Below, in pieces: positions 457 through 24,063 of a stretch of 36,497 nt of DNA (position 1 is the first letter of the stretch; every line of letters begins with the position of its first letter). Position numbers and translations under genes: made by a program. A model generated the notes under the pieces. The model saw only the letters and a program-made list of their open reading frames with translations, made no database searches and was not told the origin of the DNA. Location of the stretch: positions 1 through 36,497 of the IMG/VR virus record IMGVR_UViG_3300032058_000003; one strand, written 5' to 3'. The DNA comes from a virus.

Positions 457-2028
457 ATGGGATTCGATAAGCTGGGACTGCACATCATCGGAAACTGGCG
501 CGGCAGTCTGGGGCGGGCGCGGCTAGTGAAGTTGGTCGACGTCTCGGTCGAGTACGTCGCGCAGATCCGGGCAGAGCTGGGACCACAGGCACTCATCATT
601 GTGAGGTGGGTGCAGGGCTCGCAGCCGCTGGACAACCCTGCAGCGCGAGCACAGCAGTTTGTGGCCCGCTATCAGTCGGCCATGCTCGCCATGCGCCAGA
701 CGGCGGGGGCGAACATCGCCTTCGAGGGGTACAATGAAATCCCCGACGACCAGGCCGAGGCGTATGCCGCCTTTGAGGTGGAACGGCTGCGGCTGATGCA
801 TAGCCTCGGGCTGCGGAGCGTGGTCGGCAACTGGTCGGTGGGCACACCTGACATCCAGGTGTGGGCGAAGTATCAGCCGGTGCTCAATGCTATGGACTCC
901 CGCGACTTTGTAGGCCTGCATGAGTACTGGGTTGATACTGCCGACATCAGCAACCGCTGGCACTGTGGTCGCTGGCAGCTCGTACCGCAGCTCGCGGGCA
1001 AGCCCGTCGTCGTCACTGAATGCGGGCGCGACGTGGTAGAGGGACGCGGGCAGCCCGGATGGAAGCGCACTTGCGATCCGGCAACATTCCTGGCCGATCT
1101 GCGGACCTATAACACGCTACTAGAGCGGTTCCCGAATGTTCTTGGCGCGACCGTATTCAGCACGCCTGGGCCAGGGGGAGCGTGGTCCGACTTTGACCCC
1201 TCGCCGGTGTGGCCGTCCGTGGTCGCCTCGTACAGCAATCCGCAGACGTATCCAGGCGTCACGATACCCAAGCCCCCGACGAACAGCGCTAGGGGGCCCG
1301 ACCCGACCGTGCCCTACTGGCACTCAGACCGGCACGGCTACACCCCGGCGTGGGTGATTATCCACGACACCGAGGGGCCGGCGGAGGCGGCTCTGGCGTG
1401 GTGGAGCTCGGGCAGCAACCCGGGCAGGTCGAGCGCGCACTACCTGGTGCGCTCCAACGGCGAGGTGATATCCGTAGTGCCGGAGGTGCGTGCGGCGCAC
1501 CACGCCGGTGGCGGCAAGTGGCCGGGGATCCCCGCTGGGGCGATTGGCGGCACGAGCGTCATCAACCTGGTGTCCATCGGCGTTGAGCTAGAGTATCCCA
1601 AGGCGCCGGCCTCACCGCCATGGCCCGAGGTGCAGCTTGTGGCGGCGGCCAAGCTGGTCAGGGAGATAACCAGGCGGTATAGCATCCCCCGCGAGCGGGT
1701 GCTGCGACATGCAGATGTGGATCCTGGGAGGCGCAGTGACCCGCGTAATTTCGCATGGGATGACTTCTTGAACCGAGTTTTCGAGACGACACAGGAGGCA
1801 GACGTGGAGAGCGAAATCTTGAGAGCGGCTTGGGAAGCGATGAGAGTGCCGTACAATAGTCTGGCGGCGTTCCCCCGTGTTGCCAGGACGAATGATCTAG
1901 GTGCACCACTGCTGCCAGAGCAGGACGTCGTCATCGGCGGTGTGACGTACCGCTACCAGCCGTTCGCGCGAGGGGTTGTGTACGCCAAAGTCGGCGACTG
2001 GGGCAACTGCAAGATCATCAAGTGGTGA
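457..2028 (+). CDS. Endolysin: glycosidase-like domain plus amidase (PGRP/Amidase_2)
   Basis: A 523-residue lysis enzyme with a strong AAGGAGG site at 439-445. Residues 1-260 resemble a (beta/alpha)8 glycosidase of the GH-A type: Y-N-E at 92-94 supplies a possible acid/base Glu94, and V-T-E-C-G around Glu188 a possible nucleophile. After a Pro-rich linker (265-285), residues 295-440 form an N-acetylmuramoyl-L-alanine amidase. His303 in IIHDTEG, His418 and Asp428 in RHADVDPGRRSDP are the expected zinc ligands, and GVELEY is at 375-380. The last 80 residues are an unassigned C-terminal region, perhaps for wall binding. It is followed directly by two membrane-protein genes, which makes a lysis cassette. 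The amidase call is firm; the glycosidase call is by motif only. Confidence 0.85.
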   Translation: MGFDKLGLHIIGNWRGSLGRARLVKLVDVSVEYVAQIRAELGPQALIIVRWVQGSQPLDNPAARAQQFVARYQSAMLAMRQTAGANIAFEGYNEIPDDQAEAYAAFEVERLRLMHSLGLRSVVGNWSVGTPDIQVWAKYQPVLNAMDSRDFVGLHEYWVDTADISNRWHCGRWQLVPQLAGKPVVVTECGRDVVEGRGQPGWKRTCDPATFLADLRTYNTLLERFPNVLGATVFSTPGPGGAWSDFDPSPVWPSVVASYSNPQTYPGVTIPKPPTNSARGPDPTVPYWHSDRHGYTPAWVIIHDTEGPAEAALAWWSSGSNPGRSSAHYLVRSNGEVISVVPEVRAAHHAGGGKWPGIPAGAIGGTSVINLVSIGVELEYPKAPASPPWPEVQLVAAAKLVREITRRYSIPRERVLRHADVDPGRRSDPRNFAWDDFLNRVFETTQEADVESEILRAAWEAMRVPYNSLAAFPRVARTNDLGAPLLPEQDVVIGGVTYRYQPFARGVVYAKVGDWGNCKIIKW

Positions 2029-2030
2029 GC

Positions 2031-2288
2031 ATGGCCAAGATGGAAGACAGAAACGCCATCCTGGCGAAGATCGACGGCGCGCTCCAGGATGCTGATACGC
2101 CGCGCTGGGCTATCCCGGTGCTGCTGTGCATGCGCGACGATCACACCAAGTTGCATGCACATCTGGCCGCGCACAGAGACTGGTCGCAGCCGGTACGGCA
2201 GATCGTGGTGAGTGTGGTAACCGCGCTGGCGGTAGCGCTAGCGCTGTGGTTTGCGGCAGGCAGATTGCCGGCAGTGTTTGGCCCATAG
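2031..2288 (+). CDS. Small membrane protein of the lysis cassette
   Basis: An 85-residue protein with a charged, helical N-terminal half and one C-terminal hydrophobic segment (about IVVSVVTALAVALALWF). This suggests a single membrane pass with a cytoplasmic N-terminal domain. I chose ATG 2031; GTG 2022 and GTG 2025 overlap the endolysin stop, and ATG 2040 is another option, since no clear ribosome site separates them. It lies between the endolysin and a holin-like gene, so a holin-associated or antiholin role is likely by position. The family is not recognised. Confidence 0.65.
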   Translation: MAKMEDRNAILAKIDGALQDADTPRWAIPVLLCMRDDHTKLHAHLAAHRDWSQPVRQIVVSVVTALAVALALWFAAGRLPAVFGP

Positions 2289-2297
2289 GAGGGACAC

Positions 2298-2567
2298 ATG
2301 TTGGACTTTGTTGTTGCGGGTATCCCGGCTGGTGTAGTCGTCGTGGCGCTGGTCGAGGCGATCAAGCGCCTGCTCAAACTCGACGGCGACGTGGCCATCG
2401 CGGTCGCCCTGGTCGTCGGCGTCCTGGTGGCCGTCGGCGCGCACCTGGCCAGCATCTCGCCGGTTTTTAGCGAGTGGTGGCAAACCATCGTCGCTGGTCT
2501 GCTGCTTGGTCTGGCCGCCTGCGGGCTGTTCGATGCCGGGCAGGCGGTCAAAAGCAAGTTCCTGTAG
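2298..2567 (+). CDS. Putative holin
   Basis: An 89-residue protein with a strong AGGAGG site at 2287-2292. It has three predicted hydrophobic segments: about residues 3-20, 31-51 and 62-80. They are separated by a basic patch (AIKRLLKLDGD) and a short polar stretch, and the C-terminus is basic (KSKFL). Size, membrane topology and position right after the endolysin fit a class I-type holin that permeabilises the inner membrane to release the endolysin. A terminator follows, so this closes the late operon. No holin family can be named. Confidence 0.75.
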   Translation: MLDFVVAGIPAGVVVVALVEAIKRLLKLDGDVAIAVALVVGVLVAVGAHLASISPVFSEWWQTIVAGLLLGLAACGLFDAGQAVKSKFL

Positions 2568-2592
2568 CCTACAAGCCCCCTCCTCCCACGCG

Positions 2593-2626
2593 AAACCCCC
2601 GGGGCCACTCCCTCCCTGGGGGTTTT
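2593..2626 (+). terminator. Rho-independent terminator after the lysis genes
   Basis: AAACCCCC at 2593-2600 pairs with GGGGGTTT at 2618-2625, with a T tract at the end of the stem. It lies 26 bases after the holin stop and would end the late structural and lysis transcript. Confidence 0.75.
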
Positions 2627-2656
2627 GCGTCTTCCCGCGAAAAAAGTTGCATCCAC

Positions 2657-5554: not shown

Positions 5555-5803
5555 ATGACCATAGACAAAGAACAGGACATGACTCACATGACTCAGAGAG
5601 AGAAGACGTGCTTCACGGTCAACATTTCCATTCGCTACCGAGAGATGTTGACCAAACTAGCGGAAGTCAGCAGGCGGCCACGAGCAAACGTGCTGGAGGT
5701 ACTCATCGAGCAAGCAACCCGCCAGCCCTCGCTCGTTGGTATCCCGTCAATACCGGGCGTCGAGAGGCCAACGAGCGAGAACCCCACTGAGGACGCAGCA
5801 TGA
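5555..5803 (+). CDS. Ribbon-helix-helix DNA-binding protein
   Basis: An 82-residue protein, first in the operon downstream of the 5458 promoter. The core (CFTVNISIRYREMLTKLAEV, then SRRPRANVLEVLIEQA) is a clear RHH pattern: a strand, a helix, a turn with Ser-Arg-Arg-Pro, and a second helix. RHH proteins dimerise and insert the strand pair into the DNA major groove, usually at inverted repeats such as the dyad in the promoter just upstream. Autoregulation is therefore plausible. ATG 5555 has a weak ribosome site; in-frame ATGs at 5579 and 5588 are alternatives. Confidence 0.75.
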   Translation: MTIDKEQDMTHMTQREKTCFTVNISIRYREMLTKLAEVSRRPRANVLEVLIEQATRQPSLVGIPSIPGVERPTSENPTEDAA

Positions 5804-5839
5804 CCGATACGGCATACGGTGAGTTTGCAAGGAGGGGCT

Positions 5840-5932
5840 ATGGAGCGACCTGGTGATCGTGTGTGCGTGATAATCTGCCTGCTGGCCATGGCATACCTGC
5901 TCTGGCACATGATCCGAGCAGGATGGCTGTAG
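5840..5932 (+). CDS. 30-residue single-pass membrane peptide
   Basis: A very small gene with an excellent ribosome site (AAGGAGGGG at 5829-5837). The peptide has a charged N-terminus (MERPGDR) followed by one hydrophobic segment (VCVIICLLAMAYLLW) and a short basic tail, so it is a single-span inner-membrane peptide. Small membrane peptides at this place in phage early operons sometimes affect superinfection or host functions; none is recognised here. The strong ribosome site and compact operon spacing are the main support. Confidence 0.6.
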   Translation: MERPGDRVCVIICLLAMAYLLWHMIRAGWL

Positions 5933-6063
5933 AACAATGGGCACGCTTGGGTACGGGCCACTGCCGCTCAGACAACCGGTACGAGTGCATCAAGTTGCGG
6001 AAGGAGGTAGAAGCACTGAGGAAGGTCATCACAGACTTACGGCAAAAAGAGCAGCGCGCTTGA
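5923..6063 (+). CDS. Small coiled-coil protein
   Basis: A 46-residue ORF starting at ATG 5923, overlapping the end of the 5840 gene by ten bases in another frame. The C-terminal half (KLRKEVEALRKVITDLRQKE) is a heptad-like coiled coil, which suggests a small oligomeric protein or a membrane-fusion-type spanin relative without a signal. A GTG at 5863 would extend it by 20 residues but lacks a ribosome site. The function is unknown. Confidence 0.5.
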   Translation: MAVEQWARLGTGHCRSDNRYECIKLRKEVEALRKVITDLRQKEQRA

Positions 6064-6106
6064 CTTGAGTGGAGGCACTCGGAGCACACGAAAGGAAATA
6101 CTACAA

Positions 6107-6811
6107 ATGGCTACAAACCCCGTTCAAATGGACGACCCCTTTGAGACAGCGAGCAACGCGACCCTGGTCCCCCGAAACTACTACGGCCAGATTCAGATCG
6201 ACGCCTGGCACTGCGTGCTGATCAAAGGCCAGGGCAAAGTGCCATTCGATCCCACGTACCACAGCCGCGACGACCGGCGGACAGCGATCACCATCAGCCT
6301 GCTCCCGTTGCCTGAGCAGAACGTCCAATTCGATCTCGCCCGCGACCTGATCGCCGAGAGCCGCGAGTGGGCGGGGATCATCTGGCCAAGCCTCAGAGCG
6401 CTGGGACTAACCAGCGCCCGCGAGGCCCAGGGGCGATGGGCAAAAATGCAACAAGTGCCCAGCGGCCGACGCTACCGGAACGCCGCAGGCGAGGAAAAGG
6501 AGGCGACGACGTTCAAGTTCCTGGCGCTGTATCCCGACGAAGCGGCGTGCCGAGCAGCGTATCTGGCGGAAACTGGTCGCGGTGGGAACAATGCCCCGGC
6601 GCCTGTCTCCACCATCTCCACCAGCGGTAGCACCCCCCATGACCTCGACGTGGCCCGTCCGTTCATCGTGGCGTTTGCCAGGCAGAATGGCTACGACCTC
6701 GAACGCACCAAGGCTGCGTGTCGCTCGCAGGCGATCATTACCAAAGCCATCGACGTCGACTCGCCAGAATTCGCGGCGATTGTGGCTGAAGCGCTGGCGG
6801 GAGGCAAGTGA
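6107..6811 (+). CDS. Hypothetical protein of the recombination operon
   Basis: A 234-residue protein. ATG 6107 follows AAAGGA at a suitable distance; the in-frame ATG at 6065 has no ribosome site. Residues 30-75 look like a beta-rich domain (IQIDAWHCVLIKGQGKVPFD ... TAITISLLPLPEQ). The middle region (REWAGIIWPSLRALGL ... TTFKFLALYPDEAACRAAY) is followed by a Ser/Thr-rich linker and a helical C-terminal domain. The position before an ERCC4 nuclease and a RecT-like protein suggests a role in single-stranded DNA binding or recombination, but that is inference from neighbours only. Confidence 0.75.
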   Translation: MATNPVQMDDPFETASNATLVPRNYYGQIQIDAWHCVLIKGQGKVPFDPTYHSRDDRRTAITISLLPLPEQNVQFDLARDLIAESREWAGIIWPSLRALGLTSAREAQGRWAKMQQVPSGRRYRNAAGEEKEATTFKFLALYPDEAACRAAYLAETGRGGNNAPAPVSTISTSGSTPHDLDVARPFIVAFARQNGYDLERTKAACRSQAIITKAIDVDSPEFAAIVAEALAGGK

Positions 6812-15808: not shown

Positions 15809-15988
15809 ATGACCGACAAGCAGGGCTGGCGCAACCGAATAGTGGGCGAGGGCGAGCAGGTGGCTACTGGCTATTTGGGCGACGGGCAAGAAACCTTTCC
15901 ACTTTCAACGTGTTTATGGCAAGTGGGGCAAAGGGTGACGAGATTGGAAAGGGCGTTAGCGGACTCCCAGTCTCCGTCAAAGAGGTAA
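15809..15988 (+). pseudogene. Truncated 5' end of a ParB-like gene
   Basis: The first 19 codons (MTDKQGWRNRIVGEGEQVA) match the beginning of the ParB-like gene at 16652 (SSEWQNRIVGQGTKPAS). The frame then runs into sequence antisense to the HNH endonuclease and stops at 15986-15988. The endonuclease stop codon lies at 15871-15873, so the break in homology coincides with the edge of the inserted endonuclease. The two copies differ mainly at third codon positions, which points to an old duplication or a recombined second copy, not a recent one. Confidence 0.6.
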
Positions 15989-16635
15989 GCGGGCCGGATG
16001 TGATGGACGTGCAGATAACGCGGGGCCTTGGGACTCTTGCCGCACACCAGGCAGGTGGCGTTATCGCGGGCGAGTACGGCACGCCGTTGACGCCGCCAGT
16101 TGCCAGCGTATTCTCGGTTACGACCCCAGCCAGAACGATAGGCGGGGTTGTCTGGCCCGAGGATAGACAGGGCGCGACACTCGCGGGAGCAGTAGAAGTG
16201 GGAGTTGCGGCGCGTGACAACGGGAGAGACGCGGTAGGACTTGCCGCAGTGGGCGCAGATAACCAGTGTTTCGGTTTTGCGGTTGCGATAGATCGCGGCG
16301 CAGCGCAGGGAACAGAAGATGTGCTGTCCCTGTTTGGTGGACGCCTTGCCGACGAACTCGGTCCCGCACTCCTCGCAACGGAGAGTGCTGTACGCGGCCC
16401 TGGCGCGATGGCCGATCTGGTGCTCACGGCAGCAGAATACGTTGTCGGCCCCGAAGCGGTCAACGCGCCAGCGGTGAACCTGGATCGGCGTGCCACAGTG
16501 GGCGCACACGGTCGGTAGCAGATCGTTGACGCTTTCGCGGCCAGGAGTCTGCTTGTGCCCCTTGATGTATTGCGCGTGGGGATGTTTGACGACGCGACCG
16601 CAGCCGCACTTGCATAGCCTAAGTATCTCGTTCAT
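15871..16635 (-). CDS. Zinc-finger-array HNH homing endonuclease
   Basis: A 254-residue protein on the reverse strand; every other clear gene except the one nested in the intein is on the + strand. The start at 16635 is chosen because the -10 box TATAAT lies exactly six bases upstream. The N-terminus begins with a CKCGCG element, then three Cys4-type modules: C44-C47/C68-C69 (variant with His72), C87-C90/C108-C112 and C127-C130/C149-C153. An HNH domain follows with C195-C198, HVHHIRP (His211-His212), Asn231 and C236-C239-His240. HNH enzymes nick or cut DNA; the zinc modules probably read the target. This is a mobile gene beside a broken ParB-like copy. Confidence 0.88.
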   Translation of the reverse strand: MNEILRLCKCGCGRVVKHPHAQYIKGHKQTPGRESVNDLLPTVCAHCGTPIQVHRWRVDRFGADNVFCCREHQIGHRARAAYSTLRCEECGTEFVGKASTKQGQHIFCSLRCAAIYRNRKTETLVICAHCGKSYRVSPVVTRRNSHFYCSRECRALSILGPDNPAYRSGWGRNREYAGNWRRQRRAVLARDNATCLVCGKSPKAPRYLHVHHIRPAYLFDGDWESANALSNLVTLCPTCHKHVESGKVSCPSPK

Positions 16636-16641
16636 AGGTTG

Positions 16642-16664
16642 ATTATAGCATATGACGCAACGGT
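16642..16664 (-). promoter_or_regulatory. Extended -10 promoter giving a leaderless endonuclease mRNA
   Basis: On the reverse strand TGC-TATAAT (an extended -10; hexamer at 16642-16647) lies six bases before the ATG at 16635. Transcription would start at or next to the A of ATG. No good -35 box is present, as usual for extended -10 promoters. Confidence 0.65.
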
Positions 16665-17242
16665 CTAGCGAATGGCAGAACAGAATCGTCGGCCAGGGCA
16701 CAAAGCCGGCCTCGCAGTTCATGGCTAACCCGAAGAACTGGCGCACGCACCCACAGGCGCAACGTGACGCCCTACATGGCGCGTTGAATGAAGTCGGGTG
16801 GGTGGCTCCTGTCGTGGAGAACATTCGCACGGGGATGCTTGTCGATGGCCACGAGCGCGTGTGGCAGGCGCTACAGAACGGTGACGCGCTGGTGCCGTAT
16901 ATCGAGGTCGATCTGGACGAGCGCGAAGAAGCCTACGTGCTGGCGACGCTCGACCCGATCGGTGCGATGGCAACCGCCGACCGTGACCAGCTCGACGCCC
17001 TGCTCCAAGAGGTGCAGTCGGGCGAGGCGGGCATACAGGCGATGCTGGCGGAGCTAGGCGGATCGGAAACCGATGGTCGCGAGTATCGATCGCTGGAAGA
17101 GATTGATGCTGATATGATAGAGCCAAAGCCGCGGTGGGCACTTATCAGGATTCCGCCGTGTTCTCTTGGAGACGTTTTGGACGTACTGGCGCTCTGTCGC
17201 GTGATCCCCGGTGTCGATGTCGAGATAAGCGATGGCGACTGA
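16652..17242 (+). CDS. ParB-like N-terminal domain protein
   Basis: A 196-residue protein. Residues 10-95 resemble the ParB/Srx-like domain: NPKNWRTHPQAQRDALHGAL, VGWVAPVVENIRTGMLVDGH, ERVWQALQNG and VPYIEVDLDEREEAY. The DGHER element at 65-69 is the nucleotide-binding box (family GxRR or GHER). No helix-turn-helix follows, so it is not a plasmid-type partition protein. Phages often carry such domains beside or fused to DNA methyltransferases, and a methyltransferase-like gene overlaps its end here. The start is close to the antisense endonuclease promoter; no strong ribosome site is visible. Confidence 0.8.
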   Translation: MTQRSSEWQNRIVGQGTKPASQFMANPKNWRTHPQAQRDALHGALNEVGWVAPVVENIRTGMLVDGHERVWQALQNGDALVPYIEVDLDEREEAYVLATLDPIGAMATADRDQLDALLQEVQSGEAGIQAMLAELGGSETDGREYRSLEEIDADMIEPKPRWALIRIPPCSLGDVLDVLALCRVIPGVDVEISDGD

Positions 17243-17933
17243 CAACTCGGGATTGAGGCAGAAGATAGATATTCGCCGGTGGCTTATGGGCCGGATCAGC
17301 CCGCCACATCGTGTGCTTGATTTATACTGTGGCAGTGCGGGTGAGATGTATAGGGGGTGCTGGTCAGCGGCTGATCTGTATCTGGGGGTCGACAAGAGGA
17401 CGCCACATGCGCTAGGAAGGACGATTCGGTTGAGCGCAGAGGAGGCGGTGGAGGCGATTGATCTCGATCTGTTCAACATCTATGATCTCGATCCATATGA
17501 TTCGCCGTGGATAGTGGCACGAAGGATTATTCATCGTCGAGGGCCTGGTGTCTTTGGGATGGCGCTGACGAGCGGAGAGTGTCATGGGATGATGAGCGGG
17601 CGTAGTAACGAGGTCGTGCGGGCTATACTGGGCATCCGCAACCTGTCTGACACGAGGCTGTTTGGAAGATATTGGCACGATGTGTTTCATCTGCTGTGCA
17701 AAAGCTTGGGGGAGATAAACGGAACACGAATCATCTCTCCGATTGCTGTGGCGAGCAGCAAGCCCAAATCCGGCGCCTATTGGGTGAGCTATGCTGGAAT
17801 AGTGCTTGACAAACCCTCCGAGGCGTGCTATAATGACAACAAAAAAGCGCAAAGCACGGGGAGGGAGCATCATGCAGGGGACGTTGTTCGGAACAGTGGC
17901 GGCGACTCAGTTCGAGGGCACGACGATCTATGA
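17232..17933 (+). CDS. SAM-dependent methyltransferase-like protein
   Basis: A 233-residue protein overlapping the ParB-like gene by 11 bases. Residues 28-40 (VLDLYCGSAGEMY) match the glycine-rich SAM-binding motif I of class I methyltransferases, and YLGVDK at 50-55 fits the end of strand 2 with its acidic residue. A clear catalytic motif such as DPPY or a PC motif is not seen; YDLDPYDSPW near 88-97 is the closest. It might modify DNA together with the ParB-like partner, or be a degenerate member. Its 3' end overlaps the promoter and start of the radical-SAM gene. Confidence 0.65.
   Translation: MATDNSGLRQKIDIRRWLMGRISPPHRVLDLYCGSAGEMYRGCWSAADLYLGVDKRTPHALGRTIRLSAEEAVEAIDLDLFNIYDLDPYDSPWIVARRIIHRRGPGVFGMALTSGECHGMMSGRSNEVVRAILGIRNLSDTRLFGRYWHDVFHLLCKSLGEINGTRIISPIAVASSKPKSGAYWVSYAGIVLDKPSEACYNDNKKAQSTGREHHAGDVVRNSGGDSVRGHDDL
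17806..17834 (+). promoter_or_regulatory. Perfect consensus sigma70 promoter
   Basis: TTGACA (17806-17811), exactly 17 bases, TATAAT (17829-17834): an exact consensus. It lies inside the end of the methyltransferase-like gene and drives the radical-SAM gene starting at 17872. Confidence 0.92.
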
Positions 17934-21756: not shown

Positions 21757-24063
21757 ATGCTATCTAGCAACATCTTTGAGGTTGCTGATCGCTTCAAACG
21801 GCTACTGATTACCCGTGAGCAGGTCACGATCCGCGAGATTCGGAACTACTACCGCGAGGCAGAGCGGCGGATCACCAAACGGTTGGAATTGTTGGTCAAC
21901 GAGATTGAGCAGTGGCAGCGCGAGCGTCCTGACGAGCAGTTGCCAGTATGGTGGCTCTTTGAGCGTGAGCGGTTGCAGTCTCTACAGAAGCAGATCGAGC
22001 AGGAGCTGGCCCGCTTCTCCGAGCGCGCGACGACGCGCATCGAAGAGGAGCAGCGCCGGCTGGTCGAGCGCGCCGAGTGGGATGCCGAGACGCTAGCGCG
22101 AGTGGGATTGGGCGAGCCGCCACCGGGCGTGACGGTCACCTGGGCGCGGCTGCCCGAGTCGGCACTGGAGCAGATGGTCGGCCACTTGCAAGATGGCTCA
22201 CCGTTGCGTGAGCTGCTCGATGCGCTGGGACCGGCAGCGAGTGAAACGATCTGCCGCGAGTTGATCAGCGGCCTGGCGCTAGGGCAGAATCCCCGTGATG
22301 TGGCACACCGTATACGTGATGCCCTCGACGGCAACCGCAAGCGGGCGGAACTGATTGCGCGGACGGAAATGCTGCGAGCGTATCGCGAGGCGACGCGGCA
22401 GAGTTACCAGGCGAACGGTGATGTGGTTAAGGGCTGGGTGTGGCATGCGGCACGCGATGACCGGACGTGTTTCCCAGCCGGGACCCGAATACGGACACGA
22501 CGGGGGCAAGTGCCCATCGAAAGTGTGCGTCCTGGCGATGAGGTGCTAACACACAGCGGGGCATATTGCCGAGTTACCGAGGTTATACGCCGCCACTACG
22601 TTGGCCTATTGGTGGAGATATGCGCAGACGGGAGCAAGGTTATGGCAACTTCAGATCATCCGTTCCTGATTGAACGGCAAGGAAAGCTGAATTGGGTAGA
22701 GGCCAGCCGGCTCCGTCTGGGCGACACCGTGTTTCGCGATTGCCAGTGCCGCGCATATGTACGAGACCATGTCCTCCGCGAGGCAACCATAAAAAGGTGT
22801 GGCGGGCAGGCGCAATACACGGTATCCGCACGACTGGACAAAAAGGTCCTTTTGGCGGTCGCGGGCGCTAACCTGCCTGTGCCAATATGGCTCATCGATT
22901 TCCAGCGCAATGCCCAGATCGGGCAGCAGAAAGTCAACAGCATAGCGGCCAATTTGGAATTCTTGGACGAATCTGATCCGAAGTTGCTCCAAGCAAAGTC
23001 TGGCGTTGCGCTCGGGTTCGGTTTCTCCGGTGAAGCGCCGATAGCAGCGGAAGGAGCAGAAGCGTCGCCTATCGGTCGCGCTCGGTACGACGCGAAACTC
23101 TTTGCCGCAGGTAAGGCAAGTAACGGTGACCGGTGGTCGGCGGCAGATTTCCGAACAGTAGCTGCGATTTTCGCCGGGATGAACATAGAAAATCTTTCCA
23201 CACCTTTTGCAGGTCGCATAAATCACTTCTGGATGAGAGCACTTTGCGGAACAATAGGTATAGCGGTCAGTGTTGCTACGGCTTACCGTGAACTCTTTGC
23301 CGCAACGCGGGCACAACTTGGTGACAGTACGCCCCGCCTTGTAGCACTCTCTAGAGCAATAGATGCGGCTTGCGCTTGTGGGATGAAACTGCTTGCCACA
23401 TTTCGGGCAAGTGCGCTCTCCTCGTGGTTGCGCTGGCGTGCCTCCTGGCTTGCCGCCATGTGGAAACAGCTTTTGATAGGCCGCATAGCATTCACGAGAG
23501 CAAAATCGTCTGTTGCCCTTACGAACCCAAGCGGCGGGAATATCAAAGGGTTTGGCACACTGCTGACAGATGCATTTCATGCTCATATTATACAGGATGT
23601 GCGTTGGCATGTCCAGTCTTGCGACGTTTACAACCTGGAAGTTGAGAGAGAGCACAGCTATATCGCCAATGGTTTTGTGGTTCATAATTGTCCGATGTGT
23701 TGGGCGATGCATGGCACGGAGCATACGCTCGATGAGCATCTGGACGATCACCCGCGTGGGCGTTGCGCGATGGTGCCCTTGACCAAGACCTGGAAGGAGT
23801 TGGGTTTTGAGGGCGTGCCAGAGACTCGCGTTGAAGTTGAGCCCGGCGAGTTACTCTTCGCCAAGCTGCCCGAGGAGCAGCAGCGGGCAATCTTGGGCAA
23901 TGCGGGATACGAAGCTTACAAGGCTGGCGTGGTGACGCTGGCGGATTTTGTGGGCCAGACGAGCGACCCGCGCTGGGGGACGATGCGATACGCCAGGAGC
24001 CTGAAGGAGATGTTGGGAGCAAGTGAAGCGAAGGCGTGGTATGTGAGAAACGCTGGAGCTTGA
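21757..24063 (+). CDS. MuF-type minor head protein interrupted by an intein
   Basis: A 768-residue precursor. Residues 1-237 and 645-768 join to a 361-residue MuF (SPP1 gp7-like) head protein, a capsid-internal protein needed for head morphogenesis. The join rebuilds the family motif WHAARDDRT-CPMCWAMHGTE, and HPRGRCAMVP follows. The intein starts at Cys238 and ends with VVHN at 641-644, followed by Cys645 as the +1 nucleophile. Long helices with RTEMLRAYREATRQSY are typical of MuF. The middle of the intein is not protein-like in this frame because the opposite strand encodes an endonuclease. Confidence 0.9.
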   Translation: MLSSNIFEVADRFKRLLITREQVTIREIRNYYREAERRITKRLELLVNEIEQWQRERPDEQLPVWWLFERERLQSLQKQIEQELARFSERATTRIEEEQRRLVERAEWDAETLARVGLGEPPPGVTVTWARLPESALEQMVGHLQDGSPLRELLDALGPAASETICRELISGLALGQNPRDVAHRIRDALDGNRKRAELIARTEMLRAYREATRQSYQANGDVVKGWVWHAARDDRTCFPAGTRIRTRRGQVPIESVRPGDEVLTHSGAYCRVTEVIRRHYVGLLVEICADGSKVMATSDHPFLIERQGKLNWVEASRLRLGDTVFRDCQCRAYVRDHVLREATIKRCGGQAQYTVSARLDKKVLLAVAGANLPVPIWLIDFQRNAQIGQQKVNSIAANLEFLDESDPKLLQAKSGVALGFGFSGEAPIAAEGAEASPIGRARYDAKLFAAGKASNGDRWSAADFRTVAAIFAGMNIENLSTPFAGRINHFWMRALCGTIGIAVSVATAYRELFAATRAQLGDSTPRLVALSRAIDAACACGMKLLATFRASALSSWLRWRASWLAAMWKQLLIGRIAFTRAKSSVALTNPSGGNIKGFGTLLTDAFHAHIIQDVRWHVQSCDVYNLEVEREHSYIANGFVVHNCPMCWAMHGTEHTLDEHLDDHPRGRCAMVPLTKTWKELGFEGVPETRVEVEPGELLFAKLPEEQQRAILGNAGYEAYKAGVVTLADFVGQTSDPRWGTMRYARSLKEMLGASEAKAWYVRNAGA
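22651..23580 (-). CDS. Antisense homing endonuclease: five zinc fingers plus DUF559/Vsr-like nuclease
   Basis: A 309-residue protein encoded entirely within the intein on the opposite strand. Five CX2C-X(13-18)-CX3C modules have cysteines at 5/8/27/31, 58/61/75/79, 90/93/110/114, 124/127/142/146 and 155/158/175/179, a tandem DNA-reading array. Residues 193-282 match the PD-(D/E)XK DUF559/Vsr-like fold: YAVDFLLPDLG with Asp216, LEIDEPYWH with Glu227-Asp229 and His234, Asp241, and CGYRVLRL. I chose ATG 23580, six bases after TATAAT; ATG 23586 is an alternative. The stop TGA is antisense to Ser299 of the intein. It probably cleaves intein-free MuF alleles to spread the intein. Confidence 0.88.
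   Translation of the reverse strand: MKCICQQCAKPFDIPAAWVRKGNRRFCSRECYAAYQKLFPHGGKPGGTPAQPRGERTCPKCGKQFHPTSASRIYCSRECYKAGRTVTKLCPRCGKEFTVSRSNTDRYTYCSAKCSHPEVIYATCKRCGKIFYVHPGENRSYCSEICRRPPVTVTCLTCGKEFRVVPSATDRRRFCSFRCYRRFTGETEPERNARLCLEQLRIRFVQEFQIGRYAVDFLLPDLGIALEIDEPYWHRQVSARDRQKDLFVQSCGYRVLRLPATPFYGCLAEDMVSYICAALAIAKHGVAQTEPAGLYPIQLSLPFNQERMI
23587..23615 (-). promoter_or_regulatory. Near-consensus antisense promoter inside the intein
   Basis: On the reverse strand: TGGACA (23610-23615), 17-base spacer, TATAAT (23587-23592), then ATGAGC and ATG 23580. Eleven of twelve consensus bases match. The start point would fall on or near the ATG, giving a leaderless mRNA. Confidence 0.8.

Follow-up and report, generated by a model that had tools for sequence, protein, structure and literature searches.

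TATAAT-N6-ATG start sites at two antisense endonuclease genes of a virus, one of them inside an intein

Two reverse-strand endonuclease genes in phage coding sequence

We analyzed the complete 36,497-base virus record IMGVR_UViG_3300032058_000003 (the window), which carries two endonuclease genes on the reverse strand, P0001 and P0002. An Rfam search of the whole record gave no match. The features of the two loci and of a control promoter in the same record are as follows.

15809-15868, plus strand: left remnant of a ParB-like gene (MTDKQGWRNRIVGEGEQVA...), aligning with the N-termini of uninterrupted relatives (L019-L031)
15871-16635, minus strand: P0001, HNH endonuclease gene, 254 aa (translation; Pfam HNH, 9.4e-9; PDB 5h0m, HNH endonuclease, 2.6e-8)
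16642-16650, minus strand: extended -10 element of P0001, TGC-TATAAT (TGC at 16648-16650), six bases before the ATG at 16635-16633
16652-17242, plus strand: ParB-like gene restarted with a second N-terminus (MTQRSSEWQNRIVGQGTKPASQF...), starting beside the HNH promoter
17806-17834, plus strand: control promoter, a perfect sigma70 consensus TTGACA-N17-TATAAT with an extended -10 (TGC); third TATAAT of the record at 17829-17834
21757-24063, plus strand: P0003, MuF-like minor head protein gene with an intein (Pfam Phage_Mu_F, 3.5e-10; 80% identity to L014)
22468-23688, plus strand: intein of 407 aa in the MuF-like head protein (Pfam Intein_splicing, 2.3e-11; Hint_2, 4.3e-10)
22651-23580, minus strand: P0002, zinc-finger-array endonuclease, 309 aa, with a C-terminal DUF559/VSR-like nuclease domain (Pfam DUF559, 5.3e-7)
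23587-23592, minus strand: -10 element of P0002, TATAAT, six bases before the ATG at 23580-23578
23610-23615, minus strand: -35 element of P0002, TGGACA, with a 17-base spacer to TATAAT

P0001 begins with an array of zinc-finger (treble-clef-like) motifs and is embedded in the ParB-like gene. The left remnant of that gene adjoins the far side of the P0001 stop, and the ParB-like N-terminus is present twice, on either side of P0001 (15809-15868 and 16652-16720), as the same segment in different coding. ParB-like relatives in other contigs (L019-L031) consist of a single uninterrupted copy without an insert. P0001 looks like a homing gene that brought with it a recoded replacement for the 5' end of its target; such a replacement N-terminus would keep the target protein intact and at the same time destroy the cut site. 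Upstream of the uninterrupted ParB-like gene of L019 (about 2660-2800), a divergent TTGACA-N17-TATAAT with a Shine-Dalgarno (SD) leader points away from the gene. The scan of viral contigs returned no homologue of P0001, and searches of Chloroflexota and phage sequences gave only HNH-domain matches or matches of 28-40%, with no close full-length homologue. All of these matches were left out of the promoter comparison.

P0002 has a longer zinc-finger array than P0001, and its nuclease domain matches PDB 3r3p by profile (8.2e-9), an entry annotated as a mobile intron protein and known as I-Bth0305I. The motif ALEIDEPYWH...RD was sighted by eye. The surrounding MuF intein shows Hint splicing blocks, the junction Cys and a C-terminal HN before Cys (C238...HN644, then C), and it is exactly absent from the MuF proteins L014 (80% identical), L015 and L016. 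P0002 does not occupy the intein's own reading frame but lies on the opposite strand, antisense and codon-aligned, so that the middle of the intein is the antisense reading of P0002, while its promoter overlaps codons of the intein's C-terminal splicing block. The gene is free of TTA, CTA and TCA codons, which keeps the intein frame open, a depletion of marginal significance (P = 0.05); P0001 has two such codons.

Both genes encode a nuclease domain of a homing family, and in both cases the host gene is uninterrupted in relatives. By this comparison, P0001 and P0002 are probably homing endonuclease genes, inserted antisense into phage genes that are transcribed rightward. The MuF relatives in named genomes belong mostly to Chloroflexota/Anaerolineae, together with a few Actinomycetota and one archaeal MAG; judged solely by these relatives, the virus most likely infects Chloroflexota bacteria.

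Sequence layout of the two start sites

The original prediction had placed a TATAAT six bases before the ATG of both reverse-strand endonuclease genes, and this was confirmed. On the minus strand, P0001 starts with TATAAT-CAACCT-ATG (16647-16633) and P0002 with TATAAT-ATGAGC-ATG (23592-23578). No other copy of TATAATN6ATG occurs in the record, for which dinucleotide shuffles gave a mean expectation of 0.03; none of 100 shuffles yielded two. Bare TATAAT is present three times, about the number expected by chance, and the excess therefore lies in the placement and not in the hexamer itself. The accompanying elements that had been described were also found: the TGC of an extended -10 at P0001, where a search for a -35 element gave no match above 3/6, and a good -35 at P0002, whose promoter matches 11/12 consensus positions overall. 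At P0002 an extra in-frame ATG (23586-23584) directly follows TATAAT, upstream of the ATG at 23580-23578. Given the normal distance from -10 element to transcription start, this upstream codon would not be transcribed.

As had likewise been stated, neither gene has an SD site, the anti-SD pairing amounting to +1.5 (P0001) and +0.8 kcal/mol (P0002). The accompanying statement that other genes of the phage use strong ribosome sites holds for most of those checked (-5.9 to -15.4 kcal/mol), a few being weak as well. Among the genes checked, TATAAT-N6-ATG was found only at the two antisense endonucleases. All three TATAAT copies of the record look like parts of promoters. Downstream of the third, in the control promoter, come a leader containing a good SD site and, from 17872, a radical-SAM-like gene; we conclude that the phage uses the ordinary layout as well.

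Start sites of homologues and of endonuclease genes in other contigs

An earlier genome scan with P0002 gave no match. A phylum-wide search of 400 Chloroflexota genomes led to L500, the closest homologue found (49% identical). Its endonuclease gene is also antisense and codon-aligned within an intein (1333-2376), at the same MuF site as P0002, and hence likewise outside the intein's own reading frame. It starts with TTGTAA-N17-TATACT-N6-ATG and has an in-frame stop directly before the ATG. In an ungapped comparison with P0002, the -10 element is identical at 5/6 positions, whereas spacer, N6 and upstream sequence agree at 8/48, about chance identity. When the L500 upstream region was shuffled, such a layout arose in only 0.04% of cases. 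The TATAAT-N6-ATG-type layout is thus conserved in one homologue amid diverged flanking DNA.

Other homologues start differently. The related zinc-finger-array DUF559 genes L536-L539, from Anaerolineae-class genomes, are inserted sense-wise between rpsG and fusA, and the TATAAT-N6-ATG layout was looked for in their upstream regions and is not there. The distant homologues L006, L008, L012 and L013, mostly of lower G+C content, have leaders with SD sites. L494, a region of an Anaerolineaceae genome that is probably a prophage, contains two inteins, in its MuF and terminase genes. The MuF intein is differently placed and harbors an antisense gene with HTH and REase-like domains (5721-6641, minus strand), which has a leader with an SD site. 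The terminase intein harbors a zinc-finger HNH gene on the same strand and out of frame (1935-2642, plus strand). The comparison of zinc-finger homologues proposed with the original prediction consequently gave a mixed result, with the layout kept in L500 and missing from L006, L008, L012, L013 and L536-L539.

Bacteria of several phyla, Chloroflexi among them, make wide use of leaderless genes, which are recognized by a -10 box lying about 12 bp ahead of the start codon (Zheng et al. 2011, PMC3160421). In 41 genomes of the Anaerolineae class, a plausible host group, we counted TATAATN6ATG 630 times and the corresponding N11 pattern 397 times, with reversed-pattern controls of 136 and 137. As the controls are equal, the surplus of N6 over N11 indicates that the leaderless spacing is in use in these genomes.

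For a wider survey we collected 229 viral contigs by the pattern CxxC(G/A)KxF, which replaced a CxxCGK start pattern that had proved too loose to decide. In 36 zinc-finger-array genes a TATAAT lies no more than 20 nt from the ATG, and the spacing between the two peaks sharply at six bases (10/36; P ~1e-6 compared with a flat distribution). The remaining genes of these contigs also favor this spacing, though less strongly (17/175; Fisher P = 0.006 between the two groups), and for spacings of 5-7 taken together the zinc-finger genes exceed other phage genes only weakly (P = 0.09). A -35 match accompanies 85% of the zinc-finger-array genes with a spacing of 5-7, and 8% of them have an SD site; SD sites are present in 90% of those with a spacing of 14-20. 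Opposite-strand genes on both flanks were found for 5/10 leaderless zinc-finger endonucleases and for 1/26 of the others (P = 0.003), in a small test devised after the data had been seen. When the survey genes were scanned with Pfam, 3/10 had no named nuclease domain.

One contig of the survey, L261, resembles the window in having two endonuclease-like genes, each with a perfect TTGACA-N17-TATAAT-N6-ATG. One (1977-2738), an antisense DUF559 gene, is flanked by what appear to be two pieces of a DNA methylase gene, and its promoter overlaps the resumed piece. The second runs in the same direction as its neighbors and was recognized as HNH by eye, not by family search. Perfect TTGACA-N16-18-TATAAT-N6-ATG also precedes many non-endonuclease phage genes, among them those for an exonuclease, a thymidylate synthase and a clamp loader.

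Expression of the inserted endonucleases and relation to known systems

We consider it likely that both sites are sigma70-type promoters at which transcription would start on the A of the ATG, each endonuclease being made from its own leaderless mRNA. The position of this start follows from the geometry of the -10 element. Five lines support the leaderless reading: the canonical distance from -10 to +1, the lack of an SD site, the conservation in L500, the enrichment in Anaerolineae-class genomes and the distance criterion of PMC3160421. For an antisense insert, neither transcription nor a ribosome-binding site of the neighboring genes could serve P0001 or P0002. If a promoter runs right up to the start codon, about 40 bases would suffice for both transcription and translation start, and in the intein so compact an element may share its bases with codons of the C-terminal splicing domain. 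A gene with a compact start signal of its own could be switched on without assistance from the DNA around it. The suggestion that the design makes such genes independent of their landing place fits these data, both genes being antisense inserts and leaderless zinc-finger endonucleases elsewhere often being lone antisense genes.

It is very improbable that AT-rich hexamers merely happen to lie near two ATGs and were picked after the event, with expression coming from elsewhere. TATAAT is no commoner than chance and the layout was chosen by eye, but two sites were found for 0.03 expected, a start on the ATG predicts a spacing of N6, a -35 or an extended -10 is present alongside, and L500 keeps the layout despite diverged DNA; on the strength of the shuffles and of L500 we reject coincidence. 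Real promoters with slightly shifted starts (by 3-9 bases, for example) would give a very short leader or, for P0002, translation from the ATG at 23586-23584. Bacterial transcription start-site choice varies by a few bases and TATAAT-ATGAGC-ATG does offer a second in-frame ATG. However, this ATG lies 1-3 bases past the -10 box, too near for that box to direct its transcription, and the stop directly before the ATG of L500 also speaks against an upstream start, which makes such a shift unlikely.

It is quite possible, if on the whole doubtful, that these are ordinary leaderless promoters, a general option of phages and bacteria without any link to the mobility of P0001 and P0002. Many non-endonuclease phage genes do have perfect leaderless promoters, the excess at spacings of 5-7 extends to non-endonuclease genes of the same contigs, and leaderless genes are widespread in bacteria (PMC3160421). 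Against this stand the restriction of the layout, among the checked genes of this phage, to its two antisense endonucleases, the larger share of spacing six among zinc-finger endonucleases compared with the remaining genes (P = 0.006) and its association with lone antisense orientation (P = 0.003). The layout is therefore best described as a real, conserved and self-contained expression signal. It does not single out endonucleases: it is present at many ordinary phage genes and missing from several of the endonuclease homologues, and we reject it as a marker of endonucleases alone. For the proposed common leaderless design this means that the leaderless part is supported, given the -10 spacing, the lack of SD sites and L500, while a common design of such mobile genes was too strong a claim in view of L006, L008, L012, L013, L494 and L536-L539.

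With the leaderless genes of Zheng et al. (PMC3160421), the two start sites proposed here as leaderless promoters share a TAtaaT-like box at the right distance and the lack of an SD site. They differ in belonging to antisense endonuclease genes within phage coding sequence and in having a -10 and, for P0002, a -35 near consensus. The ShiLan endonuclease, of the zinc-finger HNH kind, is concealed within an insertion through which the frame of the host gene stays open; the authors describing it suggested a leaderless start for want of an SD site and reported no promoter (Arsenault, Gosselin and Gogarten 2025, PMC11855218). A zinc-finger HNH endonuclease hidden in an insert is also found here. 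ShiLan lies out of frame on the same strand of a non-intein insert, whereas P0001 and P0002 are on the opposite strand, with explicit promoters and, in one case, in a recognizable intein.

In T4, some of the homing endonuclease genes, which are either intron-encoded or free-standing, carry a promoter of their own into the gene that they invade, as P0001 and P0002 appear to do. Hairpins sequester the SD sites of I-TevI, II and III, many seg and mob genes are promoter-less, and segD, the sole antisense gene, is without an identified promoter (PMC2988022). The genes described here differ from I-TevI, II and III in having no SD site. The nuclease domains of P0002 and L500 match I-Bth0305I and other VSR-like (EDxHD) homing endonucleases by profile; P0002 differs from these in its long zinc-finger array and in its location, on the antisense strand of an intein instead of within an intron or between the halves of a split intein.

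A literature search for an endonuclease gene antisense in an intein returned no description, ShiLan being the only near precedent. This arrangement, present at the same site in this virus and in L500 and at another in L494, is the more novel result. We lean towards the view that it represents a class of Chloroflexota-phage inteins whose homing endonuclease is a separate gene on the opposite strand, with a leaderless promoter written over codons of the C-terminal splicing block. If so, the two strands of a single DNA segment would carry different things, a splicing protein in one direction and an endonuclease together with its promoter in the other. Earlier work has left open how selfish endonuclease genes come to be expressed once they are inserted in foreign coding sequence (PMC2988022, PMC11855218), and for such inserted genes a concrete, conserved and testable promoter is visible here. 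The antisense intein arrangement shows, in addition, how an endonuclease gene can be superimposed on the codons of a protein that must still splice.
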